The translations under genes and the position numbers were made by a program. Below are positions 6,786 through 9,427 of a stretch of 40,388 nt of DNA, piece after piece. Position 1 is the first letter of the stretch, and each line of letters begins with the position of its first letter. The notes under the pieces are model-generated. The model searched no databases, was not told where the DNA came from, and saw only the letters and a program-made list of their open reading frames with translations. Source of the DNA: Planctomycetota bacterium (GTDB taxonomy: Bacteria; Planctomycetota; UBA1135; UBA2386); assembly GCA_020425925.1 (NCBI GenBank), contig JAGQRB010000711.1, positions 1 to 40,388 of the forward strand, given 5' to 3'.

Positions 6786-6796
6786 CGGGGCCGCGG

Positions 6797-6810: not shown

Positions 6811-8166
6811 TCAGCCGCGCGCCCGTACGGACTCGAGCTCCGCGACGAAACGCTCACGGTCGATCGCGGTCCAGCCGTTGGGCAACGCGGGCACGCTGGC
6901 CGCGATCTTCTCGAGCACCGCATGGATCCGGCGGCACGCTCCCACCGTCGCCCGCTCCCGCCACTTCTCGACCGCGTTGTCCGACTCGTCTGCCGCCGCT
7001 GGCAGCGACTCGACGAGGATCCCGATCACGCGCTGGCGCAGGCTCGCGGGGCCGCGTTCGGCGATCGCGCCGAGCGCATCGACCGACGCGCCGGTCAGAC
7101 CGTTGCGGAGGTCGGCCGCGCGTGCGACGGCCGCCAGCGGCGCGATGGCGCGTTCGTCGCCCGATGCGCCGAGGCAGCGTGCGACGTGGATGCGCAACAC
7201 GTTCGGGTTCCGGCTCGGCACCGCGTCGCCGGCGCCCTCGAAAAGACGCAGCAGCACCGGCGTGAGCCCCGGCGTAGAGGACGTCGCGAGCGCGGTCAGC
7301 ACGATGAAACGGAACGGGTCGCTGTCGACTTCGAGCAGCTTCTCGGCGTGCTCCGCCACGAACTCGGGCTCGTTCGCGGCGACGAGACGCAGCGCGCGCA
7401 GTCGGACGACGAGATGCTCGTCGCGGTCGATCAGGATCGCGCAGGTCCGATCGCGGTGCTTGCCGCTCCGATCGGCGGCGCCGTCGAGCAGACTCTCGAG
7501 CGCGAGTGCCCGCTGTCGGACCTCGGGGTCGACGAGCATCGCGGCGAGATCTGCCGGTGCGGTGCGCCATTCCCGGGCGAGCTCGCGCGCATGCAGCCAG
7601 ACGCCGGCTTCGTCGCGCGCCTCGGCGACGTCATCGACGATGCGGAGCGCCTCGTCGACCTCGCCCTCGCCGTGCAGCGCGATCGCGCGTTCGATGCGGT
7701 CGGCAGCCGCCCTCGCGGCCTTCACCGCGGGTACTGCGGCGCGCCAGCGGTCGAGGCCCCGCACGAAACCCGCGAGGTCGCGCGGCAGGTCGGCGAGCAC
7801 GCGATCGTCGCGCGGGTCGAACAGCACGCAGTGCGGCCACGAGGTGACCCCGAAGCGATCGTGCACCCGGGCGGCCTCGCGGTCGTTCGCGTCGTCCTTG
7901 AAGTTGCGCGTGACGAACAGCCACGTCACCTTGCCGTAGTGCGGCTTCAGATCGTCGTGGGACAGCACCTGCTGTTCCAGGGGGAGGCAGTGTGGTCAAT
8001 ACGTCTTCGTGAAGTAGACCATCACCGGCCGGCCCTGCAGCAGCGCGTCGCGGCACGCGGCCCGATAGGTCAGGAGCCACGGTGCGCCCGGGGGCGGTGT
8101 CTCGCCGCGCGGCGACGGGATCGCGGCGAGCGACAGGAGGAGCGTCATCCGGACGACGGTCGTCAT
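6811..8166 (-). CDS. Candidate selenoprotein: exported thioredoxin-fold UPHC protein with HEAT-like repeats
   Basis: Read from the ATG at 8166 through one in-frame TGA (7998-7996) the frame gives a 451-residue protein. Residues 1-16 form a short hydrophobic signal-like segment (MTLLLSLAAI). Residues about 28-130 form a thioredoxin-like domain: strand RPVMVYFTKTY, then TGA-P-H-C at 57-60, helix LPLEQQVLSHDDLK, strand VTWLFVT, and the cis-proline loop FGVTSWPHCVLFDP (P111). The TGA replaces the first cysteine of a CPHC motif, exactly where selenocysteine sits in known UxxC redox proteins. Residues about 150-440 are alpha-helical HEAT/armadillo-like repeats. A hairpin with a SECIS-like loop follows the TGA, and a TAGCAT box lies 6 bases before the ATG. 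If UGA were a true stop, only a 56-residue fragment and a domain lacking its first strand would remain. A nonsense mutation (TGC or TGT to TGA) remains possible. Selenocysteine genes are not in this window. Confidence 0.82.
7960..7978 (-). promoter_or_regulatory. SECIS-like hairpin downstream of the in-frame UGA
   Basis: The minus-strand RNA GGAACAGCAGGUGCUGUCC folds into GG/CC plus ACAGC/GCUGU with one bulged A and a four-base loop AGGU. It begins 18 bases after the UGA and the loop starts about 26 bases after it. Bacterial SECIS elements are short hairpins with a G-containing apical loop at about this distance, and the E. coli fdhF element also has a GGU loop and a bulged base. A competing pairing (CACUGC with GCAGGUG, one bulge) exists, so the fold needs checking. 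Confidence 0.65.
7996..7998 (-). other. In-frame TGA, proposed selenocysteine codon (Sec57)
   Basis: This is codon 57 counted from the ATG at 8166. The flanking residues are KTY before and PHCLPLE after, so the TGA takes the first position of a CxxC redox motif. The frame is open on both sides, for 56 codons upstream and 394 downstream. Confidence 0.75.
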
Positions 8167-8172
8167 GCGGGC

Positions 8173-8178
8173 ATGCTA
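8173..8178 (-). promoter_or_regulatory. Putative -10 box TAGCAT for the candidate selenoprotein gene
   Basis: TAGCAT lies on the minus strand 6 bases before the ATG at 8166, the same box and nearly the same distance as at the antiporter gene (31919-31924). It supports 8166 as the true start and so supports translation through the TGA. Confidence 0.45.
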
Positions 8179-8218
8179 CGTCCTTGTTGCGCGGGTGCAG
8201 AACCGGTCGACTGTCGCC

Positions 8219-9427
8219 GTGACCGACTTGTTGCGAGAGCTGCGCGGCTTCACCGAGTTCGGCGCGCCGACCGTGTGCGCCGAACTCGCGGTCGCGGACC
8301 GGCAGGTGCCCGTGCTCACGAACGAGTTCTGGACCTCGGCGCAGCGCGAAGGCCACAGCCTGCACGAGGTCAGCTATCGCGCGTGCTTCAAGCCGTCGCT
8401 GCCGGCGTTCTTCATCGCGCGGTTGTCGGCTCCGGGAGATCGCGTCTTCGACCCGTTCATGGGCCGCGGCACGACGCCGCTCGAGGCCGCGCTGCGAGGT
8501 CGCGTGCCGTGCGGCAACGACGTCAATCCGCTCTCGGCGATGCTGGTCCGCCCGCGGCTGTCGCCGCCCGGTCTCGGGGCGGTGAACGCGCGGCTCGACG
8601 AGCTCGATCTGACCTGGGCCGGACCGCTCGACGAGGAGCTGCTGGTGTTCTTCCACCCGGAGACCCTCGCGGCGATCGAGGCGCTGCGCGCCTACCTGCG
8701 CCGGCGTGACGAGGCCGGTGAACTCGACGGTGTCGACGACTGGCTGCGCATGGTGGCGATCAACCGATTGACGGGCCACTCGAGCGGCTTCTTCTCGGTC
8801 TACACACTGCCGCCCAACCAGGCCGTCTCGGTGGCTGCGCAGCGCAAGATCAACGCCAGGCGCGCGCAGGTCCCGCCGCCGCGCGACGTTCGGGCGATCC
8901 TGCGCAAGAAGTCGGCCGCGCTGCTCGCCGACGTCGCTCCGCTCTGGCGCAACGAGGCGGTGGCGATCGCGCGCGACGCCGTGCTGACGACCGGTCCGGC
9001 CGCGGCCGTGCCCGCGCTGGCCGACGCGAGCGTGCAGCTCGTCGTGACCTCGCCACCGTTCCTCGATGTCGTGCAGTACGCCAACGACAACTGGTTGCGC
9101 TGCTGGTTCGCGGGGATCGACCCCGCGTCCGTGCCGATCACCATGGCGCGCCGGATCGACGCCTGGCAGCAGGCGATGGCATCGGTGTTCGTCGAGCTGT
9201 TCCGGGTCGTGCGGCCGGGCGGATGGGTCGCCTTCGAGGTCGGCGAGGTCCGCCGCGGCAGCGTGCGCCTCGAGGAGGCCGTGATCCCGGCAGCGGCGGC
9301 CGCCGGCTTCGAAGCCGAGCTGGTCATGATCAACGCGCAGGAGTTCACCAAGACCGCGAATTGCTGGGGGATCGACAACAACCGCCGCGGCACGAACACG
9401 AATCGGATCGTACTGCTCCGGCGCTAG
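8219..9427 (+). CDS. DNA methyltransferase (N4-cytosine/N6-adenine type)
   Basis: The protein has an AdoMet-binding motif placed after the N-terminal quarter (FDPFMGRGTTPLEAAL) and the catalytic motif VTSPPFLDVVQYAND in the C-terminal half, the S/T-P-P-[FY] form usual in N4-cytosine methyltransferases of the beta class. WGIDNNRRGTNTNRIVLL ends the protein. No restriction endonuclease or specificity gene is adjacent, so it may be an orphan methylase or part of a chromosome-marking or defence function. From the GTG at 8219 it has 402 residues. An ATG at 8165 in the same frame would overlap the start codon of the divergent gene, so I prefer the shorter form, without a clear ribosome site to settle it. 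Confidence 0.85.
   Translation: MTDLLRELRGFTEFGAPTVCAELAVADRQVPVLTNEFWTSAQREGHSLHEVSYRACFKPSLPAFFIARLSAPGDRVFDPFMGRGTTPLEAALRGRVPCGNDVNPLSAMLVRPRLSPPGLGAVNARLDELDLTWAGPLDEELLVFFHPETLAAIEALRAYLRRRDEAGELDGVDDWLRMVAINRLTGHSSGFFSVYTLPPNQAVSVAAQRKINARRAQVPPPRDVRAILRKKSAALLADVAPLWRNEAVAIARDAVLTTGPAAAVPALADASVQLVVTSPPFLDVVQYANDNWLRCWFAGIDPASVPITMARRIDAWQQAMASVFVELFRVVRPGGWVAFEVGEVRRGSVRLEEAVIPAAAAAGFEAELVMINAQEFTKTANCWGIDNNRRGTNTNRIVLLRR

Follow-up and report, generated by a model that had tools for sequence, protein, structure and literature searches.

Thioredoxin-fold (Trx) selenoproteins with a UxxC active site, in which U is selenocysteine (Sec), are well known. The 2026 inventory of prokaryotic selenoproteins includes Trx7/PDZ proteins and thiol:disulfide interchange proteins of a PF13098 UxxC type, and its tabulated families include no HEAT architecture (PMC13188914). 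The Trx7/PDZ (seleno)proteins (NF041199) have a Thioredoxin_7 domain with an active-site Sec, are probably exported, and carry a C-terminal PDZ domain. The VPGUxxT selenoproteins (NF041382 and NF041383) are likewise thioredoxin-like with Sec in the active site. DsbH and the gamma domain of DsbD (2ju5, 2fwf) have the Trx fold with a CxxC motif.

We have analyzed a predicted selenoprotein encoded in a 40,388-nucleotide stretch of planctomycete DNA, termed here the window. Like NF041199 it has a Thioredoxin_7 domain, is probably exported and would carry Sec in its active site, but it lacks PDZ and has HEAT repeats instead. It scores 14.4 bits against the NF041199 model (cut-off 300), with only 43 residues aligned (30-72), which places it outside that family. 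It shares with the PF13098 UxxC entry a UxxC motif and a PF13098 match over the cut-off (31.4 bits, cut-off 27). A HEAT solenoid is not part of that entry as tabulated (PMC13188914), and it is by description only that the two are set apart; the Trx domain could be accommodated within this broad entry, while the fused architecture does not fit it. Scanning NCBIfam gave no match of the protein to NF041382 or NF041383, of which a relative occurs in the same genome. DsbH and DsbD gamma are among the solved structures nearest to the N-terminal domain, but they have Cys where the window protein has Sec, and no HEAT domain.

The features of the locus are as follows, with residues numbered from the ATG at 8166.

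6811..8166 (-): predicted selenoprotein gene coding for 451 residues, the UGA counted as Sec; ATG at 8166, alternative ATG at 8148; stop codon TGA at 6813-6811; conserved on both sides of the UGA
8100..8166 (-): probable signal peptide with the hydrophobic segment MTLLLSLAAIP, read directly from the translation; clearer in homologues, for example MKRAILCALLLALASPAFAG
7813..8079 (-): Thioredoxin_7 domain, residues 30-118, with the cis-proline loop SWP(111); Pfam PF13899, 36.2 bits (cut-off 27), genome match 7813-8079, and structure model
7996..7998 (-): in-frame UGA, predicted Sec57, position 1 of the U-P-H-C active site; homologue column TGA 28, TGC 1
7989-7987 (-): codon of the putative resolving Cys60
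7962..7975 (-): predicted SECIS hairpin, core ACAGC-AGGU-GCUGU, located 25 nt downstream of the UGA; with the longer stem, 7979-7958, -9.4 kcal/mol
6814..7722 (-): entirely helical HEAT-like solenoid, beginning near residue 149, with the conserved motif SRNPNVLR (318-325); HEAT_2 in 24 of 25 homologues, structure model and Foldseek

The original prediction, made from the DNA letters, held that the frame running from 8166 to 6811 is broken only by a TGA at codon 57, that this TGA replaces the first Cys of a thioredoxin active-site loop, and that the cis-proline loop is intact. Translation bears this out. Apart from codon 57 (7998-7996) the frame is open as far as the true terminator, the second TGA. 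Codon 57 is flanked by VYFTKTY and PHCLPLE, the later loop reads GVTSWPHC, and the Thioredoxin_7 match agrees with the proposed fold. The start codon may be either of two in-frame ATGs, giving Sec57 or Sec51; the second was considered because a start at 8166 overlaps a divergent open reading frame (ORF) at 8165.

Homologues were sought in 34 genomes of the same family, 154 of the class and 392 across the phylum. Counting the window, the search gave 29 homologous loci, distributed over 11 families of the phylum. At the column of codon 57, 28 of these have TGA and one (L021, in genome G021) has TGC; among full homologues with the motif, no sense codon other than Cys is found at this position. 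It follows that the TGA does not stand at codon 57 by chance. The active-site motif, tabulated for 26 copies, is UPHC in 23, with single instances of UPAC, UPSC and CPHC. Invariant positions lie on both sides of the TGA: P25, W30, A37, A41, P47, Y51, T53 and K54 before it, and Cys60, Glu64, Pro111 and Asn320-Pro-Asn322 after it. In pairs of close homologues most changes fall at third codon positions, again on both sides, indicating that the two halves are translated in one frame. The stop codons of the homologues, TAG or TGA, lie at similar positions.

In the tree of these sequences the longer subfamily to which the window copy belongs (G000, the genome of the window, with G008, G254 and G485) is separated from the rest with 100/100 support. 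The sole Cys copy sits among Sec copies, which suggests a replacement of Sec by Cys on a tree whose drawn root is arbitrary. A search of the GTDB 220 collection with a CPHC pattern, which could catch the Cys form only, returned a single locus, apparently on the same contig as that of G021. For scanning genomes for the family we give the pattern ACNAARACNTAYTGACCNCAYTGY. The genome with the Cys form (L021, L115) has a SelB of 308 bits and lacks a strong tRNA-Sec, perhaps because the use of Sec is being lost or because the assembly is incomplete. A distant full-length relative (L121, G492:C29) has neither Sec nor Cys in its active-site loop and was excluded from the homologue counts. The subfamily of the window is also represented in a distant family (G254, f60), which suggests either transfer or an ancient duplication.

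The genome containing the window is a metagenome-assembled bin of 7.76 Mb in 987 contigs, 88% complete with 6.4% contamination. All four components of the Sec machinery are present above their cut-offs: tRNA-Sec (selC) at 76.6 bits (cut-off 47), SelA at 461 bits, SelB at 345 bits and SelD at 364 bits. This SelD (L016, G000:C40) is itself a predicted selenoprotein, with an in-frame TGA within GSGUAAK, at the customary Sec site of SelD. SelB or tRNA-Sec exceeds its cut-off in 25 of the 28 genomes bearing the TGA form. The remaining three are incomplete assemblies; two (G220 and G243) have neither component over its cut-off, and the third (G162) has just a partial SelB below it. Since tRNA-Sec scores at least 69 bits in 29 of the 34 genomes of the family of the window, the machinery is near-universal there, and its co-occurrence with the TGA form is a mark of consistency, not of discrimination.

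The signal for Sec incorporation would be a hairpin within the coding sequence. Rfam at its gathering thresholds and a tRNA scan gave no match in the window. RNAalifold applied to 25 TGA copies gave one hairpin, pairing columns 24-28 with 33-37 after the UGA. Pairing is possible in 92% of cells, compared with 81% in shuffled alignments and 44-78% when the structure is slid along the alignment; this last control is somewhat favourable to the hairpin, because that alignment is where the structure came from. Covariation scored 0.376 versus 0.180 ± 0.027, with 13 double-sided changes and one pair seen as GC, AU and CG. In four copies (L020, L022–L024) the hairpin is in a shifted register, with the loop GGUCU.

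The published model of the bacterial SECIS (bSECIS) has a loop of 3-9 nt with an early G and a stem of 4-16 bp, 16-37 nt downstream of the UGA, with a free energy of -7.5 kcal/mol or lower (PMC13188914). A hairpin of this geometry lies 24–25 nt after the UGA in all 25 TGA copies examined, and the same scan found no fitting hairpin in the Cys copy. Eighteen of the 25 are also within the energy limit of the model, and the minimal hairpins of the other seven are slightly weaker (-6.9 to -7.1 kcal/mol). The window copy agrees with the model throughout (25 nt spacing, loop AGGU, -9.4 kcal/mol). At other, random codons of the same genes the scan at 24–25 nt was passed by 10%, and by 2.7% when the loop had to begin with GU or GG, using an energy limit of -6.9 kcal/mol that was chosen after the data had been seen. 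Folded alone, the 61-nt stretch of the window favours another structure (z = -0.07). A synonymous-codon control gave p = 0.10 for the window copy and a mean z of -1.5 over 25 related copies, a result of moderate strength. Tests on the single sequence of the window are thus weak, and the case for the SECIS rests on the family.

The conclusion that emerges is that the reading of UGA codon 57 as Sec is strongly supported by comparative sequence evidence. The original prediction had proposed this reading, and had looked to homologues for Cys or TGA at the same column and to the genome for selA, selB, selC and selD; the column with its 28 TGA and one TGC, the complete machinery and the hairpin all speak for it. 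Other explanations of the TGA fare poorly. It differs by one base from TGC and TGT, and the window comes from an assembled bin of many contigs, so that a nonsense mutation in a Cys gene, or a miscalled base there, could be imagined. Yet 28 genomes, each assembled separately, share this TGA, which makes a sequencing error very unlikely, and the third-position bias on both sides of it, the hairpin that is conserved with TGA only and the presence of the machinery leave an error or a pseudogene hardly credible. A standard gene caller reports an ORF of 385 residues from GTG 7968, in which case the upstream piece would be noise or a separate short ORF. Against this start, conservation within the family is among its highest at residues 25-60, and the GTG overlaps the loop of the hairpin. 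As originally argued, a protein beginning there would be left without its first strand and redox site, in agreement with the modelled Trx fold, and we regard such a start as very improbable.

Recodings of UGA other than to Sec exist in bacteria, and the codon might in principle be read as Trp or Gly, or be subject to general read-through. TGA is otherwise an ordinary stop here, terminating 22 of the 28 ORFs of the window that were checked. The homologues stop with TAG or TGA at a common place, the only sense alternative at the column is Cys, and the Sec machinery is complete. A non-Sec reading of codon 57 thus seems scarcely tenable.

We consider it very probable that UGA codon 57 is decoded as Sec in an exported Trx–HEAT protein with a Sec57–Cys60 redox pair. 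The protein is likely to be exported, judging from N-termini that by eye are clearly signal-peptide-like in homologues. PF13899 is matched in all 25 homologues. The HEAT matches that follow this domain in the window protein are weak; PF13646 (HEAT_2) matches 24 of 25 homologues, the window copy falling under the curated cut-off. In a confident AlphaFold2 model (pLDDT 90.7, pTM 0.87) the Trx fold extends to about residue 140; helices then link it to a helical solenoid that runs up to the C-terminus. Foldseek matches, with modest E-values, were to DsbH and DsbD-gamma for the N-terminal part and to alphaRep/HEAT proteins for the C-terminal part. The fold, the UxxC motif and the cis-proline are those of a Trx-fold oxidoreductase, and both Cys60 and Pro111 are invariant.

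In the mechanism that we propose, the organism's own SelA, SelB, SelC and SelD would decode codon 57 as Sec, directed by the hairpin 25 nt downstream. The Thioredoxin_7/DsbD-gamma-like domain would then have Sec57 and Cys60 as its UxxC redox pair. From the fold and motif we infer a periplasmic thiol–disulfide oxidoreductase, presumably cycling between the selenolate/thiol and selenenylsulfide states. A role as reductase or isomerase appears more likely than another oxidoreductase role, because a selenolate favours attack on disulfides. In the model the solenoid with its conserved NPN motif is likely to be the partner-binding part; it would probably dock a partner protein or substrate, making the protein a partner-specific thiol-disulfide oxidoreductase. 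The neighbourhood search turned up no enzymatic partner or conserved operon, and this would suit a different kind of selenoprotein, peroxidase-like or metal-binding, with the solenoid as its main functional part. The UxxC motif with its invariant Cys and cis-Pro, and a Trx fold nearest to DsbH and DsbD-gamma, argue against such a role, which we think unlikely.

A fused 2-oxoacid dehydrogenase E1-like gene starts near 6788, about 22 bp downstream of the selenoprotein gene, which also adjoins the divergent DNA-methyltransferase-like ORF 8165–9427; both neighbours are named from their translations. In another genome of the same family (G025), a member of the other selenoprotein subfamily stands beside an orthologue of the methyltransferase (71% identity) in a shared neighbourhood, which argues that the contig of the window belongs to the lineage despite the contamination of the bin. 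The two subfamilies thus adjoin the same methyltransferase-like gene on opposite sides in two genomes of one family (6811-8166 with 8165-9427 in the window; L094, 7422-9880). A search for conserved neighbours found no operon partner conserved across the selenoprotein family, the neighbourhood of the window being common to G025 only.

Three further Trx7-type genes with in-frame TGA codons occur in the genome of the window. L085 (G000:C472, 96-1166 (-)) is a second Trx7-type candidate selenoprotein, YFTRTYAYUGPC, with TGA at the first Cys; its relatives across the family have TGA or in some cases Cys, and no NCBIfam model reaches its cut-off. L086 (G000:C788, 1324-1857 (-); VPGUSTC) resembles VPGUxxT type 2, with 226 bits against NF041383, below the cut-off, and is possibly truncated. 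L089 (G000:C840, 559-1830 (-); ERUVDC) is a true Trx7/PDZ member (NF041199, 369 bits, cut-off 300). Its motif is UxxC; the review's entry for Trx7/PDZ gives CxxU (PMC13188914).

As far as checked, the Trx–HEAT protein represents a new family within the Trx-fold UxxC selenoproteins, and not a new kind of biology. It had been put forward as undescribed, and this holds for NCBIfam of June 2026, where no model comes near its cut-off, for the table of the 2026 review, and for a literature search combining HEAT repeat with selenoprotein, which gave no match; an earlier unnamed prediction is possible in supplements, preprints or a 2026 groundwater MAG survey, which lay outside its scope. More tentatively, and with the balance against it, the protein could belong to an unrecognised Sec-dependent exported redox system of the phylum, with 28 Sec forms to one Cys, in which the solenoid would target selenenylsulfide chemistry to one specific partner, in genomes that have several Trx7-type selenoproteins in parallel.

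Ordinary gene callers would shorten the members of this well-supported selenoprotein family, as the mechanical ORF list of the window did. Searches that rely on Cys/Sec pairs would be prone to overlook the family, because nearly all of its members have Sec and hardly any have Cys. The lineage seems to invest in a number of Sec-based thioredoxin-like proteins in parallel, so that the part played by selenium supply in its envelope redox biology could be tested.
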